From a virus: a stretch of 22,171 nt of DNA. Of the stretch, positions 2,051 through 22,171 are shown piece after piece. Where the stretch lies: IMG/VR virus record IMGVR_UViG_3300042898_006867, positions 1 to 22,171 of that record; one strand, 5' to 3'. Both the position numbers and the translations under genes were made by a program. The notes beneath the pieces are model-generated. The model made no database searches and was not told the DNA's origin. It saw only the letters and a program-made list of their open reading frames with translations. Each line of letters starts with the position of its first letter. Position 1 is the first letter of the stretch.

Positions 2051-2065
2051 GAGCGGGGGCGGCTG

Positions 2066-3131: not shown

Positions 3132-3147
3132 GCCCACGGCGGCCGTG

Positions 3148-6100: not shown

Positions 6101-6117
6101 AATGGGATTCAGGAGAA

Positions 6118-6146: not shown

Positions 6147-6165
6147 TTTGATTATTCAGCGAGAG

Positions 6166-7605: not shown

Positions 7606-7658
7606 CGTACCCCACGGCACCTTCCAAACCCTGCGACCTAATCAAACCTCACGGCATC

Positions 7659-7706: not shown

Positions 7707-7713
7707 TCCATTC

Positions 7714-8295
7714 ATGGACCTCCCAGATCTTTTTCCCGCCAACCCAATGCAACTGCGCACGATTCGTCATTACAACTTCAGCGAGGTGTCCTCCGCCATG
7801 CAGAAGGCCATCCGCCGGGGTGATGCTGCGTTGGCCGGATACTGGGCCTTGGAACTGTGGCAGAGCGGCTTCGGCAAGTATGTGTGGAAGCGTCTGCTCA
7901 CCATCAGCGCGGAAGACTGCTGGGGCATCCTCACGCAGGAGGTGAAGGCACTGCATGACAGCTACCTCGTCATCAATGACGGCATCCCACCCAAGCAGGC
8001 CAAGGGCCGCATCTTCATTAGCAAGGCGGTCATCTTGCTGTGTTTGTCGAAGAAGAGTCGCGATCCCGATCATCTGCAAAATTACGTTTATGATCAGACG
8101 GCGGGTCTTGATCCTGACACGCTGGCGCTGGAGTTGCGCAACAGTGGTGATTACATTACCATCCCCGAATATGCGTATGACTGCCACACGCGCGAGGGCA
8201 AGAAGCGCGGCAAGACGAAGGCGGACTTCTTCAAGGCAGAACAGGCGGCGCTGGAGCCATTGCAGCCGGGGTTGTTCGATCACTTGATTGATTGA
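7714..8295 (+). CDS. Stand-alone RarA/MgsA C-terminal-like domain protein
   Basis: A 193-residue protein whose block SEVSSAMQKAIRRGD, YWALELWQSG and LLTISAEDCWG (residues ~18-70) matches the helical C-terminal region of the RarA/MgsA replication-associated recombination ATPase. There the same pattern (S-A-h-x-K-S-I-R-x-x-D, A-x-Y-W, h-h-x-I-A-S-E-D-I-G) forms the tetramerisation and clamp-loader-related part. The AAA+ core is absent. A separate AAA+ clamp-loader-like protein is encoded at 13618-14280 and might partner it. The C-terminus is basic then acidic and ends in PGLFDHLID. A second possible start is the ATG at 7747. A role at replication forks is inferred from the family. Confidence 0.65.
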   Translation: MDLPDLFPANPMQLRTIRHYNFSEVSSAMQKAIRRGDAALAGYWALELWQSGFGKYVWKRLLTISAEDCWGILTQEVKALHDSYLVINDGIPPKQAKGRIFISKAVILLCLSKKSRDPDHLQNYVYDQTAGLDPDTLALELRNSGDYITIPEYAYDCHTREGKKRGKTKADFFKAEQAALEPLQPGLFDHLID

Positions 8296-8297
8296 GC

Positions 8298-8320
8298 CTC
8301 GGCGATACCCGAGCCGTTTT
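8298..8320 (+). terminator. Weak hairpin with a short T run between convergent genes
   Basis: CTCGG (8298-8302) pairs with CCGAG (8309-8313) across a 6-nt loop, followed by CCGTTTT. The 5-bp stem and four Ts make a weak intrinsic terminator for the plus-strand gene ending at 8295, just before the convergent hipA stop at 8323. Confidence 0.3.
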
Positions 8321-8322
8321 CA

Positions 8323-9546
8323 TCAAACATGCTCTTGCGCTTCCTTGACGAAGTCATTCTCAAAGGCGCTGGCATAAGCGTTTAACTGTGAGGCATTGAG
8401 GTGCAGCCGTTGTCCAAGCTTTCTCCAATTCTGAACAACGGTCGTAATCTCATGCAGAATGCGGACAGCCTCGTCTGTCTTCAACCCAAAGCGGGGCGAA
8501 GCCTTGATTGCCAGCTCGATGGACGGCTCATTGCCATCCTCGGAAATACTGGTTTTGTTGATGGTTGCTCGTTCGATTTCCGGAACCGGGTTTACATCGT
8601 AAGCGGGCGATAGTGACCAGCGCCCCGAACGATGCATCAGAAAGCCGTGATTCCGAAGGTGATCGTCATAGTTGCTTGCGAGCAGCGAGAAGACCATGCG
8701 CCGCCATAATTCTCGCAGGTCACCTGAGACATCGTCACCAAACTGGCGGATTACATCCGCAAGCATGGTATAGCTGCCCGCTTCGCCAAGCGGCAAACCA
8801 AGGAGACTAGACGCGGAGATAAATGGAATGCGGCATCCTTGATCTCGATCAAATCGCTTGATCACTGCGACAGCATGGCCGCCCACGGGCACAAGCTGAT
8901 GATCGGCAGTCCGAATACCCGAAGCGCGAGCCAAACTCAGGGCGAGAATTTCACCGGCAGCAATGTCACGCACGTCGTCGGGCTTTGGGAACTTCGCAAT
9001 ACCGAGGCTTCCGTCTGGCAGGGCCACGGCTGATTTAGGCCGCGCGCCTCCAAGAGGTGAACCCTGTCCCAGCAGGAACCTCAGATCTTTTGCTGTTTCC
9101 GTTTCGCTGTGAATCGCCTCGGTGGCACGGAGCAGCGCTGGCAACTGGACGACAGGGGGCATTTTCCCAGTTCCCTGCGCCAAAAAGGCCTCGTCATCAC
9201 CCCTCCTGAATCGGAGTGCGCCTATGCGGGAGTTATCGTCCAAAGCTAAAACGTAATCGATCTCCTGAAAGGGACGCTGCTCTAGAACTCCCTTACGAAC
9301 CGCCCTCTCGATGAGAATTTTCCCCCAGCGATCCGGGCCGCAATCCTGAATGGCACCAAACAGGACGGGACTGTGCATCACACCGCGTTGCATCGGTATC
9401 GACGTAGGGTCGATGGCAAAGGCTGATTGTCCCGCCAGCCATTCGGCAGAATACTCAAAGGACACAGCCTGCCCCCGTCCCGCAGAGTAAAGGCGTCCAA
9501 CCAACTGAGTCGTCCTCTCCCATTCGATGTGCACTTCAATGCTCAT
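8323..9546 (-). CDS. hipA: HipA-family serine/threonine kinase toxin
   Basis: A 407-residue protein of normal HipA length. HipA toxins phosphorylate glutamyl-tRNA synthetase (or another synthetase) and cause growth arrest and persistence when not held by HipB. Visible: an N-terminal subdomain with IDPTSIPMQRG and FGAIQDCGPDRWGK, a loop SPLGGARPK (163-171), the Lys in LGIAKF (K185), the catalytic YDDHLRNHG (293-301) and the Asp of AYDVNP (D317). All kinase residues appear kept. It overlaps the hipB stop by ATGA (9543-9546), and both are transcribed against the surrounding plus-strand arm, as an inserted module. Confidence 0.92.
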   Translation of the reverse strand: MSIEVHIEWERTTQLVGRLYSAGRGQAVSFEYSAEWLAGQSAFAIDPTSIPMQRGVMHSPVLFGAIQDCGPDRWGKILIERAVRKGVLEQRPFQEIDYVLALDDNSRIGALRFRRGDDEAFLAQGTGKMPPVVQLPALLRATEAIHSETETAKDLRFLLGQGSPLGGARPKSAVALPDGSLGIAKFPKPDDVRDIAAGEILALSLARASGIRTADHQLVPVGGHAVAVIKRFDRDQGCRIPFISASSLLGLPLGEAGSYTMLADVIRQFGDDVSGDLRELWRRMVFSLLASNYDDHLRNHGFLMHRSGRWSLSPAYDVNPVPEIERATINKTSISEDGNEPSIELAIKASPRFGLKTDEAVRILHEITTVVQNWRKLGQRLHLNASQLNAYASAFENDFVKEAQEHV

Positions 9547-9857
9547 CTTTGGCGTGGCCTCCGAATTCGCTTGGGCAGACGTTGTTCGTCGAGTTCAAGC
9601 GCGAGAGCGTCGCTTGAGGGAGCGGCCAAGTCGCCCAGTCGCTGGTGCAGTTGAAGTACAAAGGCAGCCGTTGCCAAAGTTCCCATTGAGACACTTGGAT
9701 CCCCCTTCTCCAGTCGCCAAAGAGTGTCTTTGCTGACGAACAGCCGCGACGCCATGTCGGCAGTCGATATTCCCCGCTTGCGCCTGGCTAGGGCGAGATC
9801 ACGCCCTAGCTTTCGAAGCGTGTGGACCACGGGCAATGGCTTTGAAGCAGTATTCAC
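9543..9857 (-). CDS. hipB: HipB-like antitoxin, Xre-family HTH repressor
   Basis: A 104-residue Xre-type DNA-binding protein. The segment LGRDLALARRKRGISTADMASRLFVSKDTLWRLEKGDPSVS (split here for reference: ISTADMASRLF then SKDTLWRLEKG) is a standard five-helix HTH at residues ~17-60. The acidic, Arg-rich C-terminus would contact HipA. The start is a GTG at 9857; no better ATG lies upstream in frame. The gene is followed directly by hipA. In this family the antitoxin both neutralises HipA and represses the operon, and a palindrome sits in the promoter (9866-9881), as autoregulation requires. Confidence 0.88.
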   Translation of the reverse strand: MNTASKPLPVVHTLRKLGRDLALARRKRGISTADMASRLFVSKDTLWRLEKGDPSVSMGTLATAAFVLQLHQRLGDLAAPSSDALALELDEQRLPKRIRRPRQR

Positions 9858-9860
9858 TCT

Positions 9861-9891
9861 TATATATCTGATAAATCAGATGTTAAGTCAA
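9861..9891 (-). promoter_or_regulatory. hipBA promoter with an operator palindrome between the boxes
   Basis: On the minus strand TTGACT (9891-9886) is followed 18-19 nt later by an AT-rich -10 (ATATAT/TATATA, 9867-9861). A perfect inverted repeat, ATCTGAT-AA-ATCAGAT (9866-9881), fills the spacer and is the likely HipB operator. The GTG start at 9857 is only about 3 nt from the -10, so the transcript would be nearly or fully leaderless, or the true start of transcription lies elsewhere. Confidence 0.5.
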
Positions 9892-10109
9892 TTATTATCA
9901 GGTATAACAGTCTTTATTTGAATCACTTTGTTAACTAAAAAGACACCCGTCAATCTCAACAAGCGCGTTGATGGTCGCAACAAGTGCATGTCGGGGGTCG
10001 GCATACTCTCATACCTTGCGGAGCCTCTGAGCCTGTAAAACGCCTCCTACGCGGCAACAACGGCGGTTAATCTACGCGTCTCTTTCTTCAAGGCAGCAGT
10101 GAGCCTGAA
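9892..10109. other. Gene-free spacer between hipB and the ligase unit
   Basis: Together with the hipBA promoter on its left and a 48-bp repeat on its right, this makes up a gap of just over 300 bp without a convincing gene. It changes from AT-rich on the hip side to GC-rich near the repeat, which fits a module boundary. There is a second TATCAG half-site near 9896 that could be an extra HipB contact. I see no RNA gene and no strong terminator. Confidence 0.4.
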
Positions 10110-10157
10110 AAATGGTGATCAAAACGGTGCGACACACGCAGCCACGGTGACGAGGCC
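10110..10157 (+). repeat. 48-bp upstream repeat, copy 1
   Basis: It differs from the copy at 11104 at one position of 48. It ends 6 nt before the first possible ATG of the DNA ligase gene. The 3' end contains CACGGTGACGAGGCC, whose GAGG (10152-10155) is spaced 8 nt from the ATG at 10164. No clear -10 box is visible inside it. Confidence 0.85.
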
Positions 10158-10163
10158 CACAGA

Positions 10164-11093
10164 ATGCCCACATGGGCACTCCAAGCCATGAACACCACTA
10201 CCACCGCCTCGTCCCCCATCACCAAACCCATGCTCGCCGACAAATGTGAGCGTCTCAATGCCCTCAGCTTCCCGCTGCTGGCCACGCCCAAACTCGACGG
10301 CATCCGCTGCCTCAAGATCAATGGCCGCGCCCTGACGCGCAGCTTCAAGCCGGTGTCCAACCGCTTCATTCGCGAGTGGATCGAAGCCAACCTGCCTGAT
10401 GGGCTGGACGGCGAGCTGATCGTGAAAGGCACCACCTTCAACGAAACCGCTGGGCATGTGGGCCGCGAGAGCGGTGAGCCTGACTTCATCTTCGCCGTCT
10501 TCGACTATGTGAGCGACGGCATCGACGTGCCCTATGCCTGCCGAATGCAGGAGTTGGCGCGACTGCCGGACTACGAGCGCGTCGATAAAGTGCTGCCCGA
10601 GGAGATGCACTCGCTGGACGAGCTCATGGCCTATGAGGGGCGCTGCGTGAGCGATGGATTTGAAGGCGTGATGATCCGCACTCCCAGCTCACCCTACAAG
10701 TGTGGTCGCTCCACGGAGCGCGAGGGCTACCTGCTCAAGATCAAGCGCTTCGAGGACGCTGAGGCGGTGGTGATCGACACCTATGAGGGTATGAGCAATC
10801 ACAACGCGGCTGAGAAGGACGCATTTGGGCGCACCAAGCGCAGCATGGCGCAGTCCGGCATGGTAGGGCGCGGCGAACTCGGCGGCTTCATCGTCAAGCA
10901 GGTGGAGACGGGCATCGAGTTCCGGCTTGGTTACAACCATGTCGTCGGGGGTGTGGACCGCGTGTCTCTATGGCAGCAGCGTTCCTCTTTGTTGGGCCGC
11001 ATGGTGAAGTTTATGCACCAACCCAGCGGCGCGAAGGAAGCGCCCAGGTTCCCGAAGTTCATCGGGTTCCGTGAGCCGTGGGATCTCTCATAG
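10164..11093 (+). CDS. ATP-dependent DNA ligase, phage type
   Basis: A protein of 309 residues (301 if the ATG at 10188 is used) with the nucleotidyltransferase motifs of small phage DNA ligases. Motif I is TPKLDGIRC, with the adenylated Lys K43. Motif III is LDGELIVKG, IIIa is FAVFDY, motif IV is FEGVMIR, and motif V is YLLKIKRF. A C-terminal OB-fold part follows (GELGGFIVKQ, then KFIGFRE at the end). It seals nicks in replication or repair of the element. The T7-like length without extra domains fits a phage or element origin. The first start has a GAGG site; the second follows an A/C-rich leader like other genes here, so the start is open. Confidence 0.9.
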   Translation: MPTWALQAMNTTTTASSPITKPMLADKCERLNALSFPLLATPKLDGIRCLKINGRALTRSFKPVSNRFIREWIEANLPDGLDGELIVKGTTFNETAGHVGRESGEPDFIFAVFDYVSDGIDVPYACRMQELARLPDYERVDKVLPEEMHSLDELMAYEGRCVSDGFEGVMIRTPSSPYKCGRSTEREGYLLKIKRFEDAEAVVIDTYEGMSNHNAAEKDAFGRTKRSMAQSGMVGRGELGGFIVKQVETGIEFRLGYNHVVGGVDRVSLWQQRSSLLGRMVKFMHQPSGAKEAPRFPKFIGFREPWDLS

Positions 11094-11103
11094 GAGGCTC
11101 GCA

Positions 11104-11151
11104 AAATGGTGATCAAAACGGTGCGACACACGCGGCCACGGTGACGAGGCC
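11104..11151 (+). repeat. 48-bp upstream repeat, copy 2
   Basis: Nearly identical to copies 1 and 3 (1 and 2 differences). The similarity to copy 3 runs on past the 48 bp with AAGGGGA. It lies 10 nt after the ligase stop and before the amidoligase gene, so each of these two genes has its own copy despite tight spacing. That argues for a regulatory role. Confidence 0.85.
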
Positions 11152-11165
11152 AAGGGGAAGTCCGC

Positions 11166-11213
11166 ATGGACTTCAATCACCCGCACCCATTCCATCCTCA
11201 TGAAAACCGCTGA
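11166..11213 (+). CDS. Possible 15-residue His/Pro-rich leader peptide
   Basis: An ATG 14 nt after repeat copy 2, preceded by AAGGGGAAG, opens a 15-codon frame (MDFNHPHPFHPHENR) whose TGA lies just past the amidoligase ATG at 11200, in a different frame. It could couple translation to the main gene. Four His and four Pro in 15 residues is unusual, but the A/C-rich base composition alone could produce it. Weak. Confidence 0.15.
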   Translation: MDFNHPHPFHPHENR

Positions 11214-12162
11214 TCCTAAAGCCGCCCTCATCCAGTGGGGCATTGAACTCGAAACGCGCCTGCCTGCCACCAGCCAAGTGGCGGTGGGCAGTTACCACGC
11301 CGGGCATCCCGTCACCACGGGTCGCACCACTGCCGGTGCTCTCAGCAACGCTCCCGCCTTCAACGCTGACACGTGGAAGGCCGAGCGCGATGGCTCCATC
11401 CGCTGCGAGGCTGGTCAGATCCCCTGCGAGTTTGTGTCACCCATCCTCCATGGTGAGCGCGGCGTGGAGCATCTGATCGCCTTCGTTGAATGGCTCAATG
11501 CCCTCGGTGCCACGGTGGACCGCTCCTGTGGCTGCCACATCACCGTGGGCATTGAGTCGATCATCGGCACTTCCGACACCAAGGCGGTGAGCGAGTTCAT
11601 CCGCAAGCTTGCTCACATCGCCCGCTGGCACGCGCGCAGCCTCTACGGCCAGACGGGCACGGACCGTCACCTGAACCACTACAGCCATCCTCTTTACGAG
11701 CAGACCGCCGAGCACATGCGCAAGATCGTCACCTGCGAGCAGGAGCGGGTCAAAGCCGAGTGCGCCGAGCAATGCGGGCGCGGCATGGTGAATTTTAGAA
11801 AAGCGTTCAAGCGTGACCGCGATGGCCGGTTCATCGGCGTGGTGGAGTTCCGCGTCTTTGCCGGCACGCTGAACATCGAGAAGATCATGCATCACCTTGC
11901 CAGTGTGCTCGGGCTCTGTCGCCGCGCCTGCGAGGTCCGCTGCCTTGGCGGGTTCGGCAAGAACAAGATCCAAGCCAAGCGCACCGCCACGGCGTCGGAT
12001 GGCCTGCGCTTCCTGTGGGACTACCTCGGGTGGACCGGCAGTGCGCGGCCCGTAGCCCTCGGGCTCTTCGGCAAGCTGCACTCGGAGTTCCGCCACTACC
12101 GCATGAATGCGCATCGGCTCTGCCAGCAGTTCGATGAACGCTACCCCGATGCCAACCTTTAA
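11200..12162 (+). CDS. Amidoligase family protein (COOH-NH2 ligase, glutamine-synthetase fold)
   Basis: A 320-residue protein with the marks of the amidoligase family related to gamma-glutamylcysteine synthetase: an opening GIELE (14-18), CEFVSPIL (76-83), the DRSCGCHITVGI strand (~107-118), and VEFRVFAGTLN (215-224). These acidic and His residues form the ATP/metal site in the family. Such enzymes form amide bonds between a carboxylate and an amine and often pair with class II amidotransferases in phages and mobile elements; the next gene is exactly such a partner. The substrate (peptide, cell-wall or base modification) is unknown. Start ATG 11200 follows repeat copy 2 and an A/C-rich leader. 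Confidence 0.85.
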   Translation: MKTADPKAALIQWGIELETRLPATSQVAVGSYHAGHPVTTGRTTAGALSNAPAFNADTWKAERDGSIRCEAGQIPCEFVSPILHGERGVEHLIAFVEWLNALGATVDRSCGCHITVGIESIIGTSDTKAVSEFIRKLAHIARWHARSLYGQTGTDRHLNHYSHPLYEQTAEHMRKIVTCEQERVKAECAEQCGRGMVNFRKAFKRDRDGRFIGVVEFRVFAGTLNIEKIMHHLASVLGLCRRACEVRCLGGFGKNKIQAKRTATASDGLRFLWDYLGWTGSARPVALGLFGKLHSEFRHYRMNAHRLCQQFDERYPDANL

Positions 12163-12242
12163 GCCTTTGCCCAAACTATACGCAGTCTGCGGATAGCCGG
12201 GCCAAACCAAGAACAACGAACCTGAACCCAACTGAAACTGAT

Positions 12243-12875
12243 ATGTGTGTGATCCTGATATGTCCTCAAAATGTGCGCCCCAAAGCCGAGGTGCTGTATG
12301 CCTGTCATGAAGCCAACCCGCACGGGGCTGGAGTCGCATGGCGGGAAGGTGGCCGCGTGCGCTGGCAGAAGAACCTCAATACCGGCGAGCTTGTGACCCT
12401 GCTCAAGAAGTTGGAGGGCGAAGTGGTCATCCACTTCCGCTGGGCCAGTGTGGGCGGGGTGGATGCGCGGCTGTGCCATCCGTTCCCTGTCACCCCGAAG
12501 GCCTCTACCAGCCTGAGCGGCATGGCGGAAACGGTGCTGTTCCACAACGGCACGTGGAGCGGGTATGAAGATGCGCTCAAGCGGTTGGCGCAGCACCGCA
12601 AGGAACCCCTTCCTGTAGGTCCGATGAGCGACACGCGGGCAGCGGCGCTCGTGGTCCACACCATCGGTCCTGATTCGCTGCACAAGCTGCCGGGGCGCTG
12701 GGTGTGGATGAGTGCTCATGAAACCCGCCTCTTCGGTCCATGGGAGACGTGGGGTGGCATGCAGGTGAGCAACACGTTCTTCGTCCCACGCCTGCGGTCT
12801 GCTCAAGCACGCCGCAAGGCTACGCAGCCTGCGGACCAACGCCCACGCCACCAATCCTGCCTCTTTGCCTGCTAA
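12243..12875 (+). CDS. Class II glutamine amidotransferase-like (Ntn hydrolase)
   Basis: A 210-residue protein that starts MCVI, so removal of Met exposes Cys2 as the N-terminal nucleophile of GATase class II. Further family signs are NPHGAGVAW (25-33), IHFRWAS (63-69), HPFPV (79-83) and VLFHNG (98-103), the glutamine-binding elements. It would release ammonia from glutamine for the amidoligase encoded 80 bp upstream. Their pairing is a known combination in phage and mobile-element biosynthetic clusters. The C-terminus is basic and probably disordered. The ATG follows an A/C-rich linker (12207-12242) without a ribosome site. Confidence 0.8.
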   Translation: MCVILICPQNVRPKAEVLYACHEANPHGAGVAWREGGRVRWQKNLNTGELVTLLKKLEGEVVIHFRWASVGGVDARLCHPFPVTPKASTSLSGMAETVLFHNGTWSGYEDALKRLAQHRKEPLPVGPMSDTRAAALVVHTIGPDSLHKLPGRWVWMSAHETRLFGPWETWGGMQVSNTFFVPRLRSAQARRKATQPADQRPRHQSCLFAC

Positions 12876-12904
12876 ACCAAACCCAAACCCAAAACGAAAC
12901 CGAT

Positions 12905-13468
12905 ATGAAACTGTTCAAACTGATCGCCAGCCGTGCTGGCCAAGTGCTCTTCGATGACCGCGTGGAGGCTGACTCCCCGCGTGAGGCCCGCGAGCAGATG
13001 AAGGCCCTGCTCGGGCTGCAATCATTAACTGGGGTGGTCTATGCGATCACCGAAATCCCCATCGAGCTCATCCAGAGCATTGTGGATGCGAAACTGGCGG
13101 AAGCCCTGCAGCGAGTGCGCAGCGGCCAGCCACCGGCCAGCATGGAGCAGATGATCCGCCCCATTGCGAGTGCGGCAGTCCGGGAGCAACTCGCCACGTT
13201 GCGCACGGTGCAGCCGGATGATCCACCCGCAGGGCCGCAGCGCTTCGACGCGTTCACGCCAGCCGACCTGATCATTGGCACGACCACGATGCCGCAGCCA
13301 CGGCGCAAGCGCGTCAGCGTGACCACCAACGGCACGCTGGTGGATTGGAAGTCGGTGAAGCGAGCGTATCGGCGCACCGGCTCCATCAAGCAGACGGCGG
13401 TGCAATTTGAACTGTCGATCAACTCCGTGAAGGCACGTATCCGCCGGGAGGGCTGGACCCATGAGTGA
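12905..13468 (+). CDS. Unknown protein with C-terminal helix-turn-helix
   Basis: A 187-residue protein. The N-terminal ~55 residues (KLFKLIASRAGQVLFDD, then DSPREAREQMKALLG) look like a small alpha/beta element-specific domain. The middle is low complexity and Pro-rich. The end (DWKSVKRAYRRTGSIKQTA, then FELSINSVKARIRREGW) reads as a helix-turn-helix of the type in which cells skip repeats of similar residues, followed by a basic helix. It could be a transcription factor for this arm, or a DNA-binding part of the following AAA+ complex. The longer open frame upstream overlaps the amidotransferase gene and is rejected as start. The ATG follows an A/C-rich linker. Its stop overlaps the next small gene (ATGAGTGA). 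Confidence 0.7.
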   Translation: MKLFKLIASRAGQVLFDDRVEADSPREAREQMKALLGLQSLTGVVYAITEIPIELIQSIVDAKLAEALQRVRSGQPPASMEQMIRPIASAAVREQLATLRTVQPDDPPAGPQRFDAFTPADLIIGTTTMPQPRRKRVSVTTNGTLVDWKSVKRAYRRTGSIKQTAVQFELSINSVKARIRREGWTHE

Positions 13469-13637
13469 TCGTCTCTCCATCACCAAGTATGGCCAGCGGT
13501 ATTGGGCCGTGTGGCTCGACGGCGAACTGCTCGCAGTGACGCTCTACAAGAAGGGCGCTCGTGCCATCACGGCCGCGATTACGACGCTCTCCACGCATCA
13601 CGGAAAGGAGGTCCATCATGGCATCCAAGCCGCGTGA
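13461..13637 (+). CDS. Small unknown protein between the HTH and AAA+ genes
   Basis: A 58-codon frame whose ATG overlaps the HTH gene stop by 8 nt and whose end overlaps the AAA+ start by 20 nt, a typical coupled arrangement. The product begins MSDRLSITKYGQRYWAVWLDGELLAVTLYKKGA, i.e. YGQRYWAVWLDG then LLAVTLYKKGA. This beta-rich, Trp/Tyr-containing pattern is common in small mobile-element proteins that fill a gap upstream of ATPases. It carries a strong GGAGG for the next gene near its 3' end. No family recognised, but the coding pattern and overlaps support it. Confidence 0.6.
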   Translation: MSDRLSITKYGQRYWAVWLDGELLAVTLYKKGARAITAAITTLSTHHGKEVHHGIQAA

Positions 13638-14280
13638 ACGTGCCCCCAAACAAGCTCCTTCTGCGCAGTCGCCGATGAACTGGCGACCGCGCACGGCGGA
13701 GGATCTGATCGGCCAGGCGCGGCGGGTGGCGCTGGCGCAGGTGAGCAAAGCGAAGCGGCTTGCCAACGATCCCAGCGCCACGATGAAGCTGCTGCTCTAC
13801 GGTCCGCCGGGCGTGGGCAAGACCAGCGTGGTGGAGTTGGTGGCCTTGCAGCTCGCAGGCACACCGCTCTCCATCGAGGACTACAACGGGCGTGAGGTCA
13901 CGGTGGACCTCGTGCGTGAGTGGATGAAGCAGCTTCCTTATGGCAGCCTGTTCAGTGCTTGGTCGGTCAAGATCGTCAATGAACTGGACCGCTGCTCCCG
14001 TGAAGCGCAGGACCTGCTGCTCACTTATCTCGACCGCCTGCCACCGGGCCGCGCGTTCCTCGGAACGAGCAATCTGCAATTGGATCTGCTCACCGAGCGG
14101 TTCCAGACGCGGTTCCAAGCCATCAAGCTGCTGCCTCCGACCACGGAGGAACTCGCCGCGTTCCTGAGCACGCACTGGCTGGTGCCTGCATTTACGGCCT
14201 CACAAATCGCCGTGGGCAGCGGCGGATGTGTGCGGGCCGCGCTCGCCGATCTCGAATCCTACCTCGACCACACACCCTGA
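13618..14280 (+). CDS. AAA+ ATPase, clamp-loader/RuvB-like
   Basis: A 220-residue protein: AEDLIGQARRV (28-38), Walker A GPPGVGKT (62-69), Walker B-like VKIVNELDRC (117-126), sensor 1 FLGTSN (147-152), and a box near TERFQTRFQ (159-167) with candidate arginine fingers. The order and the NELDR spacing resemble RFC/DnaX-type clamp loaders and RuvB, but the Walker B Asp is replaced by Asn (N121), with Glu kept. The protein is short, lacking a C-terminal collar. It has the best ribosome site in the region (GGAGG, 13607-13611). It may act with the stand-alone RarA-C protein at 7714-8295. Family firm, partner speculative. Confidence 0.85.
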   Translation: MASKPRERAPKQAPSAQSPMNWRPRTAEDLIGQARRVALAQVSKAKRLANDPSATMKLLLYGPPGVGKTSVVELVALQLAGTPLSIEDYNGREVTVDLVREWMKQLPYGSLFSAWSVKIVNELDRCSREAQDLLLTYLDRLPPGRAFLGTSNLQLDLLTERFQTRFQAIKLLPPTTEELAAFLSTHWLVPAFTASQIAVGSGGCVRAALADLESYLDHTP

Positions 14281-14300
14281 ACCCGAACCAACGAACGACC

Positions 14301-14720
14301 ATGCAACACATCCAACAAATGATTGATCAACACGGCGGCTTTGAAGCCGTCCTCGCCCGCTACCTCCGTTTTGAGAACCCGCCGTTCATGCGGCTGGTGA
14401 TCGAGGTGATCGGTGGCCCGTATCCCAACGGTGCGTATGAGGTGAGCGTGGCGCACTACGCCGAGCAGAACGGCGATGCGATGCGCGATCCTGAAATCAC
14501 GTTCCTCGTAGTTCCTGCGAAGCAAGGCACGACATGGACGCCGCTCACCTTCGAGAATAGCTACATGGGGACCTACCAAGTCGTGGCAGTCGTCAACGCC
14601 GACGGTGCGCTGCAAGTCCGGCAGCCCAGACAGATGCAGGAGCTTCGGGAGTTAGCCAACCATTTGGACATCAACCTCAAGCAACAGGGGTTTGGGGAGG
14701 TGTCATCCTCACTACCTTGA
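14301..14720 (+). CDS. DUF6908-like protein
   Basis: A 139-residue protein with an N-terminal helix and then a beta-rich core: FENPPFMRLVIEVIG, YEVSVAHYAEQNGD, AMRDPEITFLVVP, and WTPLTFENSYMGTYQ. I recall this pattern (SVAHY-EQNGD-MRDPE) from DUF6908 proteins carried by mobile elements; their function is not known. It follows the AAA+ gene after a 20-nt A/C-rich linker (14281-14300) with no Shine-Dalgarno. It ends the transcription unit: the convergent AbiE-type toxin gene ends 52 bp further on. Confidence 0.7.
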   Translation: MQHIQQMIDQHGGFEAVLARYLRFENPPFMRLVIEVIGGPYPNGAYEVSVAHYAEQNGDAMRDPEITFLVVPAKQGTTWTPLTFENSYMGTYQVVAVVNADGALQVRQPRQMQELRELANHLDINLKQQGFGEVSSSLP

Positions 14721-14772
14721 GATGCGAATTCATCATCCTCAACACGAAGTCCCCTAGCCATGGATCAACCCG

Positions 14773-15687
14773 TTAAAACCTCGTCTCCAGTTCAGCAGCC
14801 TGCCGAACGAATTTATCCGGGTTGGTCTTTTTGAGCCGTGCAAGGTTTTCGAGTTTCCAGCGGATTGCTGGCATCTCCCGAAGGTGTTGGCATTTCATGA
14901 GGCTCCAGTCCGGCTCTCCCTTGACCAGTCCCAGAAGAAAGGCGCGTTGTCGACAGGTTAAGGCTTTGGGAAGTTCATCGAACAACCGTCGCCGGGCATC
15001 GTGTAGATCATTGAGAGACACTGCATGACGAGCCATTCCTTCAAATTCGCCGATGAACACAGGGGTGATATCGATTACATGAGCGAAGAGCACCTCGTGA
15101 ACTGGCCGGTTGTGGCCTGCCAAATAGCAGACAAAACATTCGACCATACCCTCATTCAGTCCGTGTTCCTCAAGCAAGCCGAGCACGTCGAATAGATCGC
15201 GTGGATGCTGCCGATCCATCGCAGCAACGAGCTTGCTTCCATACAGTTCGTCCGTGTGCAAGATGGGCAGCTCAAGTTCGGAGAAGAAGAGGTCCTGCGC
15301 CACTGCGGAGAGTGGGCGATTCTCTGGGGGAAGAAGCGTGCCGCGAAAGACATGATTCACCTCAACCTTGATCCGCGTTCGGCCACGCTCGACGAAAAGC
15401 TTTACCTCGGGTCCCTGGGCCATGGAACCAAGTTCACAACGAACGCCGAGGGTTCCCGTGATCTCGCGACGGATCGATTCTAGCTCCGCAGACACAGCTA
15501 CGAGCGCATCGTCTCGGCTCTGAGAGTGATCAGTGATCACAAGATCAAGATCCACTGAGAGCCGAGGCATATCCCGGACGAAGAGGTTGATCGCCGTGCC
15601 GCCCTTGAGTGCAAACAACGGATTTCGGAAGACTAAAGGAGCAACATCAAGAAGCAATCGCACCGAGTCGAGGTAGATCGGGTTCAT
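14773..15687 (-). CDS. abiEii: AbiEii/AbiGii-type nucleotidyltransferase toxin
   Basis: 304 residues from the ATG at 15687, which shares one base with the antitoxin TGA (TGATG). The frame is open upstream to 15735, but that part overlaps the antitoxin gene. The DNA-polymerase-beta-like signature is clear: FALKGGTAINLF (25-36) and RLSVDLDLV (42-50), with the GG and two Asp residues, then KVEVNHVF (~107-114) carrying the third acidic position. AbiEii-like (MenT) toxins add nucleotides, for example to tRNA, and cause abortive infection or growth arrest. Together with the upstream gene it forms a type IV toxin-antitoxin module that probably protects against other phages. It runs against the plus-strand arm. 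Confidence 0.9.
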   Translation of the reverse strand: MNPIYLDSVRLLLDVAPLVFRNPLFALKGGTAINLFVRDMPRLSVDLDLVITDHSQSRDDALVAVSAELESIRREITGTLGVRCELGSMAQGPEVKLFVERGRTRIKVEVNHVFRGTLLPPENRPLSAVAQDLFFSELELPILHTDELYGSKLVAAMDRQHPRDLFDVLGLLEEHGLNEGMVECFVCYLAGHNRPVHEVLFAHVIDITPVFIGEFEGMARHAVSLNDLHDARRRLFDELPKALTCRQRAFLLGLVKGEPDWSLMKCQHLREMPAIRWKLENLARLKKTNPDKFVRQAAELETRF

Positions 15688-16418
15688 CACGGTTTCAGGA
15701 TCAAGGTTCGTCCATCCTTGAGGCGTTTGACCCATCGACTGCTACTCGTTTTGCCACCTGCGGCTTCCCTCGCCTTCTCCGCCCAGGTCAATCCGAGTTC
15801 TTCCGCCCAAATGACACAAAGACGGACCGCCTTGGTCATGCGGCAATGTGCAATCATGGTAGCCAAATGGCGCGTCCGGAGTTGTCTAAGCGACTCCATG
15901 ATCGCACGAGCCTCCTCGATTGACTGGTGCACGCCGACCTCACTGAGCATTTCCAGCAGGGCACGCTCCGGGGTTGACACTCCAGGACCCTCAGGTGCCT
16001 CAGGTAGCGGAGACAAACCGAAGCCGTCTGGCAGTTCCTCGTCGAAGAGTCTAGCCGAACTGAATCTCGCTGGAAAACGCTCAAGAAACCATTGTGGAAG
16101 AGAGCCTTTCCGGTAGCCCCACAGAATCAGCGATTCCCGGTGCTCCACGTTTTGCCGAAAACCATGCCAGGCGAGCGCAGACTTCGCCGCGACATGAATC
16201 CCCGGCATTTTCCGCTCTAAGAAACGAAGTGTCGTATCACGTTCCAACTTATCCCCGGCGAACATGAAAACACCGCGCCCTAAACGCTCTAGCCAGCCTG
16301 ATTTCACATAGTCATGGGCCAGCGCTGAGGAGATGCCGTGACCTTGTAAGATCGCGGTATCCAATGGTCCTCCCCTTGGCTCAGAAGTCTGAAGCGTTTT
16401 GATTAAACTTGTCGTCAT
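15687..16418 (-). CDS. abiEi: AbiEi-type antitoxin with winged-helix N-terminus
   Basis: A 243-residue protein. The N-terminal region GPLDTAILQGHGISSALAHD then VKSGWLERLGRGVF (~17-52) matches the winged-helix/AbiEi N-terminal layout. The rest resembles the AbiEi core (STPERALLEML, RALL-type segment ~150-160), which neutralises the toxin indirectly and represses transcription. It is encoded upstream of and overlaps the toxin by one base. An imperfect inverted repeat (16418-16440) covers its start, which suits negative autoregulation. Gene order and sizes match known AbiE pairs. Confidence 0.85.
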   Translation of the reverse strand: MTTSLIKTLQTSEPRGGPLDTAILQGHGISSALAHDYVKSGWLERLGRGVFMFAGDKLERDTTLRFLERKMPGIHVAAKSALAWHGFRQNVEHRESLILWGYRKGSLPQWFLERFPARFSSARLFDEELPDGFGLSPLPEAPEGPGVSTPERALLEMLSEVGVHQSIEEARAIMESLRQLRTRHLATMIAHCRMTKAVRLCVIWAEELGLTWAEKAREAAGGKTSSSRWVKRLKDGRTLILKP

Positions 16419-16440
16419 TGTTTAAGTAACACTTGAACAA
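16418..16440 (-). promoter_or_regulatory. Inverted repeat over the antitoxin start, likely AbiEi operator
   Basis: TTGTTTAAGT (16418-16427) and ACTTGAACAA (16431-16440) pair with one mismatch across AAC, directly abutting the antitoxin ATG. AbiEi proteins bind inverted repeats in their own promoter. A second short one, TGATTG-AATC-CAATCA (16510-16525), lies upstream. No good -10/-35 pair is visible. Confidence 0.4.
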
Positions 16441-16550
16441 TCACTCCAAGAAGAAACAAGCGCAATCAAATTGTTTACCGTTGATTGATTAGATCAAGCC
16501 TCACTTGAATGATTGAATCCAATCAAATCAAAACACTCTGAATGGACTGA

Positions 16551-16598
16551 AAATGGTGCTCAAAACGGTGCGACACACGCGGTCACGGTGACGAGGCC
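16551..16598 (+). repeat. 48-bp upstream repeat, copy 3
   Basis: Two differences from the copy at 11104, and the match continues with AAGGGGA. It sits right after the antitoxin promoter region and ends 17 nt before the ATG at 16616. As with the copy at 10110, a minus-strand toxin-antitoxin module ends just upstream of it. Confidence 0.85.
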
Positions 16599-16615
16599 AA
16601 GGGGAGATCGGCTCA

Positions 16616-17008
16616 ATGCCGATTCATGAACCTGAACCCATCCCTCCACCCATGAGCAAGAAAGACATGATCGAACAACTGCGCCTACGCCTTGCCAGCA
16701 ACGACCGCTGGGCCTTGCGCGCGCTAATGCGCATCTACCAGAACCAGACCGACGATGAACAATGCCGCGAGGCCACCATCGAGCGCAATGGCATCGGGTT
16801 CACCGGACCAGATGCCGAGATAATGACCAGCTTCGCCCGTCAGTATCAGCGGCGCGGATGTCTCAGCCCCAAGCAGATGATCATCCTGCGCCGCCGCATG
16901 CCGGCCTATGCGAGGCAGATCTTGCAATGCACCGACACCACCCGCCTTGAACACGCCTTTTGCGGCACCTGCTATACGTACACTGCGGATAGCAAGTCTG
17001 CCGCATGA
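16616..17008 (+). CDS. Conserved-looking small protein of unknown function
   Basis: A 130-residue protein (119 from the ATG at 16651, which follows an A/C-rich leader like those of nearby genes). The core (WALRALMRIYQNQTDDEQ, ERNGIGFTGPDAEIM, FARQYQRRGCLSPKQM and RRRMPAYARQIL) has the feel of a family I have seen in phage and plasmid proteins (N-G-h-G-F, A-x-h-h-x-S, L-S-P-K-Q), with no assigned function. It ends in a CGTC-type Cys pair and a Ser/Ala tail. It heads a unit with the AAA+ gene 21 bp downstream. No catalytic motif seen. Confidence 0.6.
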   Translation: MPIHEPEPIPPPMSKKDMIEQLRLRLASNDRWALRALMRIYQNQTDDEQCREATIERNGIGFTGPDAEIMTSFARQYQRRGCLSPKQMIILRRRMPAYARQILQCTDTTRLEHAFCGTCYTYTADSKSAA

Positions 17009-17029
17009 ACCCACACCCAACGCACCACC

Positions 17030-17992
17030 ATGCCCACACGCAGCCTGACCAGACAAAACCCTGAAATCCAACTTCTGCCCGACGCGGCCACCGCAGACGA
17101 TCATCGCAACCCGCGCCGCAGAAGACGCGAGGCTGAGGAACCCGCCCCCGATGTTGGCCACCTCGTGCAGCCAGAGCCGCGCCATGAACTCGACAAGCTG
17201 ATCCTCCATGCGGATGTGAAGACGGACATCTTGGCAGGCCTGCGGGCGCTGGAGATCCGCGCTGATCTGGACCGCATTTGGAACCTGAGCAGCATCCAAC
17301 CGCAGGAAGGAAAGTGCATTTTGAACTTCTACGGCCCGCCCGGCACGGGCAAGACGCGCGCCGCCCTGGGCATCGCGCTGCGCCTCAGCAAGCCGCTCTA
17401 CCAAGTGGATTACAGTGCAGTCATATCGAAATACCTCGGCGACACCGCCAAGCACATCAAAGCCGCCTTTGCTGCTGCCCGTGAGCACGACGCCGTGCTG
17501 TTCTTCGACGAGGCCGACAGTCTGCTCTCCAAGCGCGTCGCCACCGGCGAATCCTGCTCCACAAGCATCAACCAGAACCGCAACTGCCTGATGCAAGAGT
17601 TGGACCGCTTCGACGGCGTGGTGATCGTGACCACGAACTTGTTCGAGAACTATGACCCCGCACTGCTGCGCCGCATCCAGCGCCACATCAAATTCCGCAA
17701 TCCAGACTCCTCCATGCGCAGGGAGCTCTTCGCCCTTCATCTCCCCAACCCTGATCGGGTGCAGGCTGATTACGCGGTTCTCTCGGAGTTATCCAAGGGC
17801 CTCAGCGGTGGGGACATCCTGAATACTTGCGTGAACGCGATTCATGTGGGCAGCACGGATGCGGATCCGGCGAAGTGGCAGGTGACGCAGGAAATGCTGG
17901 AGAGCGAGATCAGGAAGGTGAAGAAGACGAAGGCGGAGCACTCAGGGGAGAAGGGGAAGAATCGGAGGAAGATTGGGTTTCAGCCGAGTTGA
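17030..17992 (+). CDS. AAA+ ATPase, FtsH/CDC48-like core
   Basis: 320 residues. A basic N-terminal ~50 residues (RNPRRRRREAE) are followed by a helical linker, Walker A YGPPGTGKT (101-109), Walker B VLFFDEADSL (156-165, D160/E161), sensor 1 VTTNLF (200-205), and arginine-finger candidates in ALLRRIQ (211-217). A C-terminal lid domain has LSGGDI. All key residues are present. The class resembles FtsH/spastin/CDC48-type ATPases that remodel proteins; no protease or membrane part is attached. The extreme C-terminus is very Lys-rich. The ATG follows an A/C-rich linker. Its last ~100 residues and 3' flank recur at 19925-20290. Confidence 0.9.
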   Translation: MPTRSLTRQNPEIQLLPDAATADDHRNPRRRRREAEEPAPDVGHLVQPEPRHELDKLILHADVKTDILAGLRALEIRADLDRIWNLSSIQPQEGKCILNFYGPPGTGKTRAALGIALRLSKPLYQVDYSAVISKYLGDTAKHIKAAFAAAREHDAVLFFDEADSLLSKRVATGESCSTSINQNRNCLMQELDRFDGVVIVTTNLFENYDPALLRRIQRHIKFRNPDSSMRRELFALHLPNPDRVQADYAVLSELSKGLSGGDILNTCVNAIHVGSTDADPAKWQVTQEMLESEIRKVKKTKAEHSGEKGKNRRKIGFQPS

Positions 17993-18058
17993 TCGGCGGA
18001 GAAATTGCTTTTTGAGGGGGCTGGGCGAGTTGGCCCTGGACGTAGCGCGGGGACGGGG
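17693..18058 (+). repeat. 366-bp direct repeat, left copy (3' end of AAA+ gene plus flank)
   Basis: The homologous right copy is at 19925-20290, exactly the same length. By hand I count about 27 differences in the 300 coding bases, with only two in the last ~110 of those. The similarity runs ~66 bp past the stop into GGGGAC-rich sequence. Start-to-start distance is 2232 bp. This is too diverged for a fresh duplication. Confidence 0.85.
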
Positions 18059-18231
18059 ACGGGGACTGATCATTCCCCCCGCTCGGCGTCAATTCCGCGG
18101 ACTCCACCATATTGTCAGTGAGGCTTACATGAGTTAGATTTTTTGTAAATAGCTATGAACTAAAGTCCCTGAACTTGAGGTGCATAGGCATTCGTTGATT
18201 GTCGCATGCTGGCATAATGATAATCGTGCAT

Positions 18232-19794
18232 CTAAAATTGCGACGCTTTCTTTGCTGTCGCTGACTTGTCTTCGGCAGCTTTCTTGTCTGCTTCATGCTT
18301 CAGTGCTGCAAGCTTTGCGCTCACCACGGGGCGCATCTTCAGCGAGTAATGATAAATGCGCTTTAATTCCTTGGTGTTACCTAGGGGTTCATACATCACG
18401 ATGGTGCCTCCGTCGGCATCCTCATGGATGAAATGACTTTTACCTACTTTGCCAGGCTTGTCAGTGAATTCGCCGTAACGTTTGGTGAAGTCGGCCATGA
18501 GCGCGTCGATATGCTTGGCTGTGTCGCTCAAGGGTTCGATGTCCATGGCGTAGAACTGGTCGTCGATGAACCACGCGGTGTAGCGTCCAGTGGACGTTGC
18601 GTAGCTCCAGTAGTCGAAGTTTGGTGCCACAGGAATGCCTGTGGTCTCAATGAAATCGGTCAGCATATTGTGTCGCCCTGTGAAGGAATGAGTCGCAATG
18701 GAAATGCCGATTCGCTCGGCCATGTTATCGGTGATCTGCTGCACTTGAAACTTGAGAATAGAGGGCCATAGATCGGATTTGATGGTTTTCGCGACAGCTT
18801 CGGTGGTTGCCAAATGCTTGCTATAAAGCATGATGATATCCGGCGTGAGACGGCTGCTAATGAATGAATCCGGGGCGTCATGCAGAAGGAAGGGCATGAG
18901 TAACTTCGCGGTCTCGTCGAAGTTCGTCCCCCATTTGGCAAAGCGAAAACCGGAATGATTGGTGAGCATTAGCTTGTCTTTCTGCATCGCTTTCGCGATG
19001 CGCGCGCTCAGGAATCGGCGGCACTCGTTTTGCATGAACAATACTTGATCGGTGCGTTTTGGTCGGGTTGCGAAGATCGTCGTGGTCGCTTTCGGCTCGA
19101 TGGAACGGTTGAGAACGAGCTTCACAAAAGACCCAATGATTTCAGTGCCCTTGGGGCCCTTCACGTCTTCAGCGGTATCGTTGCTCAGCGCAAGATCCCA
19201 GAAGCGCAAGACTTCGAGATGCTTTTTCTCTCCATCGAACATGAGGTCAGGAAAGCTCCAGCCATAACTGGTTTTCTCCACCCGTGTCATGCCTCCACCG
19301 TAGCCATTCGCATAAATGCATTCGGTCGTCCAAAGTTCCCATTGTTCACTGACGTCAGCAACAAACGCGAGAATTTTCTCCCCAGGCAGTCCTTTCAGAT
19401 CAGCGAGAATCTTGGTGGCTTCCTGGAATTGCCCGTCATTCATTTGATTAGCAGGCAATCCGATGCCAGGCGCAAGAAATACCTTTGCGCTTCGTCCAGA
19501 CATGAGGCCATTGTGAAGGAAGCTAAGCACACGTTCTTGCCAGGCATCGGCCAAATCGGTATCGGCAAACAAGCCACCTTTGCTAGAGTCAATAATCTTG
19601 AGTATTTCCGGTGATGGTTTGATCTGGCCAATTGCCGATGACCACTGTTTGTCGAATCCCACAAGCCACTCGGTTGGGGCATCGGCAAAGGCCACAGGAC
19701 TCCATATCACACTGCCTATGAATAGAATCGAAAACGTGCAACGAAGAGCCATCTGAAACATAGAGGACAACGTTTGTTTAGAGTAAATCATCAT
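18232..19794 (-). CDS. Secreted protein of unknown function, passenger gene
   Basis: About 520 residues from the ATG at 19794 (the frame is open to 19947, but that part overlaps the repeat and is low quality). A hydrophobic stretch at ~15-33 ending in AFA-DAP is a good signal peptide, so the mature protein is periplasmic or outside. The rest is a single alpha/beta-looking domain with Trp-rich segments (EQWELWTTECIY, YGWSFPDLMF) and no motif I recognise. The C-terminus is a Lys/Ala-rich tail. It is less GC-rich than the phage genes, flanked by the 366-bp repeats and convergent with the AAA+ gene, so it looks like acquired cargo. No function claimed. Confidence 0.75.
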   Translation of the reverse strand: MMIYSKQTLSSMFQMALRCTFSILFIGSVIWSPVAFADAPTEWLVGFDKQWSSAIGQIKPSPEILKIIDSSKGGLFADTDLADAWQERVLSFLHNGLMSGRSAKVFLAPGIGLPANQMNDGQFQEATKILADLKGLPGEKILAFVADVSEQWELWTTECIYANGYGGGMTRVEKTSYGWSFPDLMFDGEKKHLEVLRFWDLALSNDTAEDVKGPKGTEIIGSFVKLVLNRSIEPKATTTIFATRPKRTDQVLFMQNECRRFLSARIAKAMQKDKLMLTNHSGFRFAKWGTNFDETAKLLMPFLLHDAPDSFISSRLTPDIIMLYSKHLATTEAVAKTIKSDLWPSILKFQVQQITDNMAERIGISIATHSFTGRHNMLTDFIETTGIPVAPNFDYWSYATSTGRYTAWFIDDQFYAMDIEPLSDTAKHIDALMADFTKRYGEFTDKPGKVGKSHFIHEDADGGTIVMYEPLGNTKELKRIYHYSLKMRPVVSAKLAALKHEADKKAAEDKSATAKKASQF

Positions 19795-19924
19795 AATATT
19801 TTTGAGAAAATGAGAGCAAGAGTTCGGCGATTTGAAACTACCGAATAAAAGCAGGGATGATCCTTTGTGGCAAGGATTGCAGCTTTTTTGCCCATGCCTT
19901 GGTTGCGGGCAGTGACGATGGTAG

Positions 19925-20290
19925 TTCCGCCTTCCAGACGCCTCCATGCGCCGGGAGTTGTTCGCCCTTCATCTCCCCAACCCAGATCGGGTGCAGGCTG
20001 ATTACGCGGTTCTCGCGGAGCTATCACGCGGTCTTAGCGGTGGGGACATCCTGAATGTGTGCGTGAGCGCGATTCATGCGGGCAGCACGGATGCTGATCC
20101 GGCGGAGTGGCATGTGACGCAGGAAACCCTGGAGAGCGAGATCAGGAAGGTGAAGAAGACGAAAGTGGAGCACTCAGGGGAGAAGGGGAAGAATCGGAGG
20201 AAGATTGGGTTTCAGCCGAGTTGATCGGCGGGGAAATTGCTTTTGATGGTGCCGGGTCGAGTTGATCCTGGACGTGGCGCGGGGACGGGG
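19925..20290 (+). repeat. 366-bp direct repeat, right copy
   Basis: Matches 17693-18058 at about 90% by manual alignment. The left edge of the match is sharp (TTCCGC at 19925); upstream sequence is unrelated to the AAA+ gene. It separates the passenger gene at 18232-19794 from the three-gene operon at 20371-22171. Confidence 0.85.
19946..20224 (+). pseudogene. Truncated 3' fragment of an AAA+ ATPase gene
   Basis: A 92-codon open frame identical in frame and stop to the last part of the 17030-17992 gene (RRELFALHLPNPDRV, LSGGDIL, then a Lys-rich end). The Walker motifs are missing, so it cannot be an ATPase; translation from its internal ATG would give only the lid domain. Many of its differences from the full gene lie in third codon positions or change similar residues, so it likely came from a related element's intact gene rather than from decay here. 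Confidence 0.8.
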
Positions 20291-20370
20291 TGTGAGGAAG
20301 GGGGGCATCGCCGTTTTGAACACCAAATTCTTTTACGCCAGTAGCCCCCCATTCACACTCACTTGGATTC

Positions 20371-21177
20371 CTATTTATAAGAATACGTGCAAGTTGGGCT
20401 TCCTACTGTTGCGCCCTCACGGTAAAGCGATTGCAGATATGGCGGCATTTGAGCAACTCTATGATCAAGCGCTTCTTTGGACTCATGAACGGTTGGAGCG
20501 ACTGCGCCCATTATGTCGGCCACTTCACCCCAGCCCTCGAAGCCCTCAGCAAATTGAGGGTCACAATGCCATTTTCCCTCGTCTACCATTACCATGTTGA
20601 TGAACACGGCATGAAAAAGTCTAACAGCGGCATGTTTGATGGTGTCCCCTTTGGTCTTAGGCGTCCAAGCAACGAGATTACGGCTCACACCAGGAAACTC
20701 ATAATCAACCCGCGTTGCTGTCCAAAGCAGATAAATCCCCGGAAATCGCGTGTCGATGTAGAACTTAACCGTGCCACCAATGCACTCACTGGCCAGAATG
20801 ACGAACGGATGATAGATCTCTCCAAAAAGATGAAGCCTCTTTACATCGAATGGGGCGACGCCTTCCGGCAGCGGGTTTTTGCAGGCATGATAAACTGGAT
20901 GTCCGTCAATGATCCGGTAGGGTTCAGCAACGTTCTGGCCTGTCGCTTTGAGCGTCACTGCTCCATTCTCATCTAGATCCATGCTGAATCCTTGACCCCT
21001 AATCACCTGAGCCGTCACGTCTTTGAGCGTGAATACGTCAGATGTGTTTCCTGATGAGATGTTGGCTTTCATAAATTGATTCATACCACAAAGGACCCAG
21101 GAGACCACAGCAAGCGCCGTTAGTGTTAATGTCTTCTGGTCCGCAAAGCCAAACCCTGTGCTTAAACATTGAGACAA
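20371..21177 (-). CDS. Membrane-anchored protein of unknown function
   Basis: 268 residues from a TTG at 21177, or 237 from the ATG at 21084. With the longer start there is a hydrophobic segment at ~17-33 (LTLTALAVVSWVLCGM) that would anchor it in the inner membrane; with the shorter one the helix is lost, so I favour the longer. The rest is mostly beta-looking, with Trp/Tyr/Phe-rich stretches (GEIYHPFVILASECIGGTV, FPGIYLLWTATRVDYEF) and three or four scattered Cys. Last gene of a three-gene minus-strand operon. No family recognised. Confidence 0.6.
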   Translation of the reverse strand: MSQCLSTGFGFADQKTLTLTALAVVSWVLCGMNQFMKANISSGNTSDVFTLKDVTAQVIRGQGFSMDLDENGAVTLKATGQNVAEPYRIIDGHPVYHACKNPLPEGVAPFDVKRLHLFGEIYHPFVILASECIGGTVKFYIDTRFPGIYLLWTATRVDYEFPGVSRNLVAWTPKTKGDTIKHAAVRLFHAVFINMVMVDEGKWHCDPQFAEGFEGWGEVADIMGAVAPTVHESKEALDHRVAQMPPYLQSLYREGATVGSPTCTYSYK

Positions 21178-21207
21178 GTCCGTGCAAGGCCTCAGTCTTC
21201 AACAAAG

Positions 21208-21708
21208 TCATGTCGCCGGACGTAGCGCTTCGACTTTTTTACGAATCAACCGAATCGCAGCAATCGTCTCCTCAATGACATTAGCATTTTTGAGGTATAG
21301 CCTATTTCCCTCTCCCGATAGCATTCCATCGGTCACAATTTGCGGTCCGGGATCAAAATCGACCATCGCCATCAACGCACGATATGCAGATATATCTGAT
21401 GGATCCAGTGCTCTGAGCTTCGATGTGCCTTTGTCAGTTCTTACGAGCCGAAGAATTTCCATCCAGTTTTTGCCGAGGGATTGTGCCAGTTCTTCGACCA
21501 GTTCTCCCAGTTCCGTCCACTCAGTGCTGAACTCTTCGAATTGATCTGACCAAATGATGTCTCCATCCGAGCAGGATCCAAAAAAGTGGATGCAGGTGTC
21601 GCAGGCCCCGGGGCTATTGAGCCGCTTGCAAATAGGACACCGTTCGACGGCTTCATTGCCATCCGGAGTCAGTAGAGGAGTTGAAAGTTCCGAATCAGAG
21701 TCATTCAT
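21208..21708 (-). CDS. Unknown protein with an N-terminal zinc-ribbon-like Cys cluster
   Basis: 166 residues. After a polar start, CPICKRLNSPGACDTCIHFF (residues ~24-43) plus a further Cys in FGSC gives two CxxC pairs and a fifth Cys, a treble-clef or ribbon-like zinc site. The remainder is helical and acidic (TELGELVEELAQSLGK, VIEETIAAIRLIRKKVE). It lies 28 nt downstream of the gene at 21737-22171 and 30 nt upstream of the membrane protein gene, all on the minus strand. Size and acidity are like immunity proteins, but that is only a guess. Confidence 0.65.
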   Translation of the reverse strand: MNDSDSELSTPLLTPDGNEAVERCPICKRLNSPGACDTCIHFFGSCSDGDIIWSDQFEEFSTEWTELGELVEELAQSLGKNWMEILRLVRTDKGTSKLRALDPSDISAYRALMAMVDFDPGPQIVTDGMLSGEGNRLYLKNANVIEETIAAIRLIRKKVEALRPAT

Positions 21709-21736
21709 AATCTAATTTCCGAAAGGTTATTTTTGT

Positions 21737-22171
21737 TCATGCGCCGATGCTGTCGAGGAACTCTTTGTATGACGCTCGTTCATTATCACTCAGGTCGTAT
21801 CCCCATCGGTCCATCAAGCCTTTGAACATCTCTAGGGCAGCCTCGCCAGAATCGGCAATCCCACGTATCCGAACGTCCGACGTCCACTCATAGCGCCCCC
21901 AGTTGTCGTCCCACGAAATACGGAACATCGCCCAATCATACTCTTCTCCTATCCAGGGAACGATGTAGTAATAGTCTCGTGTCTCCCAGGTCAGGCCGGG
22001 CGAGTGAGCGGTTTCATCGCCTAGCTTTCCAAGAAACAATACGTCGTCAGGAATTTGAGCCTGCATCTGTTCCAATTGACAGTCTCGGGAAAGGTCTTCA
22101 TCTGGCTTTTCTACCGGCTCCACAAAGAAATGGAGTTCAAAATTATCAAAGTTGATCAAAGGTTGCTTCAT
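21737..22171 (-). CDS. Small acidic protein of unknown function, first gene of passenger operon
   Basis: 144 residues from an ATG lying exactly at the window edge; an earlier start outside the window is possible. It is acidic, rich in Trp, Tyr and Phe (ETRDYYYIVPWIGEEYDW, ISWDDNWGRYEW), with a helical C-terminus (AALEMFKGLMDRWGYDLS). No signal peptide or motif. Codon use is less GC-rich than in the phage genes. With the two genes after it, it forms cargo behind the right copy of the 366-bp repeat. Confidence 0.65.
   Translation of the reverse strand: MKQPLINFDNFELHFFVEPVEKPDEDLSRDCQLEQMQAQIPDDVLFLGKLGDETAHSPGLTWETRDYYYIVPWIGEEYDWAMFRISWDDNWGRYEWTSDVRIRGIADSGEAALEMFKGLMDRWGYDLSDNERASYKEFLDSIGA

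Follow-up and report, generated by a model that had tools for sequence, protein, structure and literature searches.

As the 3' end of an AAA+ ATPase gene occurs twice within a 22,171-nucleotide stretch of viral DNA (the window, which is the whole IMG/VR virus record IMGVR_UViG_3300042898_006867), with another gene between the copies and further genes behind the second one, we were interested in how such an arrangement arises. From the sequence alone, a 366-bp repeat of the AAA+ 3' end with a spacing of 2232 bp and about 90% identity had been described, and this was confirmed by repeat search (17693-17992 against 19925-20224, 91% identity, start-to-start spacing of 2232) and by blastn (17693-18058 against 19925-20290, 90.2% identity over 367 columns, E ~1e-139). 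The edges of the repeat are sharp, identity outside both sides being at background (3-9 of 20 positions matching), and the GC content drops from ~61% to ~51% at 18 kb of the window. The 66 bp assigned to the repeat beyond the gene are indeed repeated, but they consist of a spacer of about 8 bp and most of an independent 79-bp element, called R here; 5'-truncated AAA+ 3' ends are called A. The features of the window are as follows.

1-17692: phage region with portal, terminase and endolysin genes (minus strand) and with ParB-like, DNA ligase, amidoligase, clamp-loader-like ATPase and other early genes (plus strand), from PHROGs matches
17030-17992, plus strand: complete AAA+ ATPase gene, 320 aa (Pfam AAA, 8e-26), the last phage gene before the cargo
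17693-17992, plus strand: copy 1, coding part (A), the AAA+ 3' third (repeat search, blastn)
17993-18060, plus strand: copy 1, non-coding part, a short spacer and R with its conserved core from 18001 (R profile, E 1e-13; independent copies in other genomes)
18061-19924: passenger segment (cargo 1), also present in G003:C107 and in G040, G046 and G047
18232-19827, minus strand: passenger gene, 531 aa from that start (531-571 aa by start codon), no Pfam match
19925-20224, plus strand: copy 2, coding part, a 5'-truncated and mosaic AAA+ 3' remnant with an open frame at 19946-20224
20225-20298, plus strand: copy 2, non-coding part, spacer and R (R profile, E 5e-18)
20299-22171: cargo 2 segment, three minus-strand ORFs, the last one running to the record end

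The gene order of the phage region matches that of viral contig L005, whose AAA+ protein is 89% identical to the one in the window, and of about twenty Prosthecobacter/Verrucomicrobiaceae MAG contigs. The left 17.7 kb of the window is a phage region whose hosts, judged from these relatives, would be Verrucomicrobiaceae (Prosthecobacter-like). Two gene pairs, hipBA (8283-9953) and abiEi/abiEii (14703-16550), are absent from the otherwise syntenic L005 and look like further cargo insertions within the phage region, similar to phage morons, accessory genes that lie at defined places of phage genomes without repeated gene ends that also build chromosomal arrays. A direct repeat of 45-67 bp (TGGTGATCAAAACGGTGCGACACACG...GTGACGAGGCC) is present at 7662, 10109, 11103 and 16550, ahead of several phage genes; it is kept in relatives of the region and may be a phage promoter or operator. 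The ParB-like protein lies beside a weak match to a TET-associated glycosyltransferase (6194-7307), and this region and the amidoligase (11200-12162) possibly represent DNA hypermodification genes. A short inverted match at the left end of the phage (GCAATTTC) was seen by eye only and is too short to be claimed.

The last ~58 bp of the repeat belong to R, a dispersed element (consensus CTGCTAGGAAATTGCTTTTGAGGGGGCCGGGTCGAGTTGGCCCTGGACGTGGCGCGGGGACGGGGTGTGAGGGGGGCTG) that stands alone with sharp borders or is fused to A. It is mostly intergenic, its copies differ from each other by 5-25%, and contigs frequently end near it. R was found in 31 of 68 Verrucomicrobiaceae genomes and in only two more among 240 sampled genomes of the order, A in 26 of the 68; 19 genomes carry both and 12 carry R without A (association p=5e-4). 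The 5' truncation points of A are scattered, and no exact R or A+R motif was present in viral contigs. A similarity of R to the tRNA T-arm was noted by eye only and is too short to be claimed. Where two R copies share their right flank, the adjacent third of R is more similar than background and the far third is not, whereas for pairs sharing the left flank the signal of chimerism is weak and a general gradient confounds it.

The passenger segment allowed both versions of the first joint to be compared, as had been suggested as a check. In G003:C107 the segment, at 95.9% identity, follows a lone R with no AAA+ sequence there, so that this locus is the unoccupied counterpart of the window joint at 18001-18058. 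By contrast, the passenger recurs next to an AAA+ remnant in three genomes, namely beside A in G040 and beside A+R in G046 and G047, there on long contigs and in other surroundings, and copy 2 is therefore no plain local duplication, in agreement with the sequence-only reading. The block common to the window and G046/G047 is 93% identical overall, with 95% for the cargo and only 83% for the AAA+ part against copy 2; the idea that copy 2 was carried unchanged with the passenger in these genomes was dropped for this reason, and either recombination or faster divergence could explain the lower value. No relative of the passenger protein was detected in viral contigs, and the cargo 2 segment (20299-22171) has no match among the 68 family genomes.

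The differences between copies 1 and 2 are unevenly spread, as the sequence-only reading had stated, and comparison with G040 resolved them into a recombination mosaic. G040 matches the passenger (from ~19100) and the initial ~75-90 bp of copy 2 at 99-100% identity, and beyond this point similarity falls to ~73%, while the last 108 bp of the copy 2 coding part are nearest to copy 1, with 94.4% identity against 84.3% for the next best sequence. At the best cut, informative sites divide 16:6 versus 0:31 (p=5e-9, with the cut chosen post hoc). From its G040-like start, copy-1-like end and split informative sites, copy 2 is a recombinant within the AAA+ 3' segment, which points to recombination within repeats rather than a simple duplication. 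The proposal that copy 2 came from another element has to be modified, its 3' third being related to copy 1. Copy 2 is a remnant of the AAA+ C-terminus only, with the reading frame kept and without the nucleotide-binding part; as copy 1 is complete and overlaps it, copy 2 does not belong to a full-length AAA+ gene split by an insertion.

In most loci of the family the AAA+ gene is adjoined downstream by unrelated DNA. Across 88 fetched contigs, mostly of draft MAGs and selected for carrying repeats (empty sites are under-sampled), 166 junction elements were counted, 64 with A, in the same orientation, and 102 with R only. Of 81 pairs of neighbouring elements, 79 share their strand (p=3e-21); the median spacing is 1.4 kb (quartiles 0.9 and 2.4 kb), and the segments between the elements hold ordinary accessory genes, one to several per segment and on either strand. 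Further copies of the repeated segment, each followed by different cargo, had been predicted and were seen downstream of AAA+ in G001:C138, L021 and L032; in G001:C138 six more junction elements follow the full AAA+ gene. L005 has AAA+ directly joined to a metal-ATPase segment, whereas L032 has a cassette plus another A piece in between, and relatives do not always carry both copies with the same genes between them. A cassette of ~1.3 kb, which encodes a secreted repeat-type protein, is joined to R on its left in G011, G049, G021, G003 and G002 and on its right in G011, G049 and G002, with differing neighbours; in G021 an A+R stands in place of its right end.

These elements behave as breakpoints of synteny. 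Comparisons sharing one flank outnumber those sharing both by 130 to 2 at R junctions and by 221 to 0 at A junctions, compared with 88 to 70 at control points placed 450 bp or more away from all junctions; the cross-genome comparisons are not independent, and counted per point the effect gives p=9e-7 for R and p=2e-7 for A. No empty site, with flanks collinear without the repeat, was present among the fetched, repeat-selected contigs. R as a simple insertion repeat (MITE, REP-like) was rejected, as no empty site was seen and both flanks were shared in only 2 of 132 comparisons of these contigs. Prosthecobacter-type bacteria carry accessory blocks that are divided by one-way repeats in a cassette-like manner, with neighbourhoods differing by species.

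Such one-way arrays of small exchangeable segments, parted by a recurrent short element, resemble integrons and CALINs. Integron integrases (TIGR02249, over the curated cut-off) occur in 24 of the 68 family genomes, e.g. G068:C1:7221108-7222040, but no significant match to R was obtained at any of 18 fetched integrase loci, and the folding of four R sequences was no better than that of shuffled ones (z -0.44 to 0.18). Because of the missing fold and the absence of R around the 18 loci, R was rejected as an integron attC, and the arrays are no standard integron. They also differ in having genes on either strand and sometimes several per segment. Direct repeats of ~100 bp were observed near some integron integrases of the family, and R and integron integrases co-occur across genomes slightly above expectation (p=0.01), without explanation.

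The origin of the A pieces may be read from related prophages. In G011:C45 the prophage begins with tRNA-Pro and a tyrosine integrase, continues with structural and early genes and ends with AAA+, followed by metal-resistance genes, and L031 and G004:C25 each carry a direct fusion between the start of an integrase gene and the AAA+ 3' part, as expected of an integrated element minus its interior. This layout and these fusions indicate that AAA+ is the cargo-side end and that A pieces can arise by deletion. AAA+ is the cargo-side phage end in the lineage of the window; the relatives L006 and L007 have more phage genes after it. Elements of 8-18 kb in G007:C11, G007:C17 (L191-L198) and G012:C50 (L029) combine a tyrosine integrase, phage early genes and AAA+ with few or no structural genes and are either satellite-like elements or deleted prophages. 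In G007:C17 (L198:157-2595) an in-frame fusion links AAA+ to the middle part of another gene, and the resulting open frame has 833 aa.

We therefore consider it fairly probable that the window shows a cassette-like array of junction elements that starts where the phage region ends, with A and R serving as homology blocks for homologous recombination. Integrated elements losing their interior would leave AAA+ 3' fragments, and the host-dispersed R often lies directly after such fragments. Both, in one orientation and every ~1-2.5 kb, would then act as homology blocks, and recombination within them would add new segments at the AAA+ 3' end without disrupting the gene, or swap segments between arrays. 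In the window, the phage end would have been joined via R to a passenger segment bearing an A remnant (copy 2), which would have recombined with a copy-1-like A+R that brought the cargo 2 segment. Recombination inside A and R would account for AAA+ staying intact, for copy 2 being a mosaic and for segments being exchanged, while prophage decay would explain the scattered 5' ends of A, which may in general be scars of this process. Shared segments suggest transfer between species. Homologous recombination is favoured because the breakpoint of copy 2 lies in coding sequence and no att core connects the integrase end with the AAA+ end, and the joining is probably done by general homologous recombination with no dedicated recombinase. 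Against this reading, the R joints are precise at both ends, as a site-specific enzyme would also give, and RecA acts poorly on a repeat of only 79 bp with 75-95% identity.

A less likely explanation is site-specific accretion, in which a tyrosine integrase of the tRNA-linked kind, acting in trans, would move integrase-less segments into tandem arrays with R or the AAA+ 3' end as the attachment site. Such accretion is familiar from CIMEs and ICEs, where integrase-less segments lie beside integrase-bearing elements at tRNA genes; the layout is alike, but no att core was found for the A/R arrays. The ssrA-specific tandem genomic islands of Dehalococcoides, for which accretion was proposed, likewise consist of tandem accessory segments, some of them integrase-less, with direct repeats of the 3' end of one gene in one orientation; those islands, however, target a host RNA gene, have a 20-bp repeat and a single fixed point of insertion, and come with a serine integrase module (PMC3146451), whereas the A/R arrays repeat as much as 300 bp of a phage AAA+ gene, a 79-bp element or both, with variable 5' ends and breakpoints within the repeat. 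In the present family, tyrosine integrases (Pfam PF00589) beside tRNA-Tyr, tRNA-Leu or tRNA-Pro form the left end of related elements, and in G021:C4 and G026:C77 the array follows a tRNA gene (Tyr and Leu, respectively) and an integrase; the window has none, and many contigs are too short to show one. These nearby tRNA-linked integrases and the exact R joints of cassettes in several genomes keep a site-specific mechanism alive. On the other hand, no direct repeat connects the tRNA/integrase end to the AAA+ end (none of at least 11 bp in G011:C45, none of at least 8 bp in L031), no second copy of the tRNA-Pro 3' end is found nearby, so there is no tRNA-Pro-derived attR at the AAA+ end, and R was not found at integrase-proximal left ends. 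Neither a constant crossover point nor a shared att core was detected at the A and R junctions examined. With these negative results, the scatter of A 5' ends and the position of the copy 2 breakpoint, homologous recombination fits better than the suggested addition of cargo as by integrases aimed at gene 3' ends. An equally tentative variant is that R, either alone or together with the AAA+ 3' end, marks a non-integron cassette system, in which a dedicated or phage-encoded recombinase would move segments across Verrucomicrobiaceae species using a 79-bp non-palindromic site.

It is rather improbable that the sequence on the right side of the window is simply host chromosome, in which copy 2 is what remains of an old prophage and R is an insertion repeat, no cassettes being involved. 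Copy 2 does resemble a decayed prophage end, R is found mainly between genes, and the passenger with its remnant lies on long contigs in G046 and G047, but R and A flanks are almost never collinear elsewhere, unlike control points, the fetched contigs showed no empty site, and the same segments have different neighbours. Still less credence is due to copy 2 being a tandem duplicate of copy 1 that diverged later in the genome of the window: its 3' third and R are nearest to copy 1 (94%), possibly by gene conversion, but for the 5' part this is refuted by the first 75 bp and the adjacent passenger, which are 100% G040-like, and the passenger with an AAA+ remnant exists in other genomes. Assembly chimeras across short repeats, conceivable as contig ends often lie near R and the sources are nearly all metagenome assemblies, are very improbable, since R copies differ by 5-25% and joints are found again in separate assemblies (a 16.8-kb stretch running through A+R is common to G046 and G047 at 98.8%, and G011 and G048 share an R site).

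Homologous recombination within A and R is thus retained as the preferred reading. No description of A/R arrays was found in the open-licence literature, which is weak evidence of novelty. The results point to widespread one-way arrays of exchangeable segments in Verrucomicrobiaceae that have no integron hallmarks and are tied to a phage genome end. They offer a testable case in which gene ends of decaying prophages would have turned into recombination sites, gathering cargo while the gene stays whole. Provided that the segments are mobile, searches for integron integrases and attC sites would be expected to overlook such gene exchange in common freshwater bacteria.
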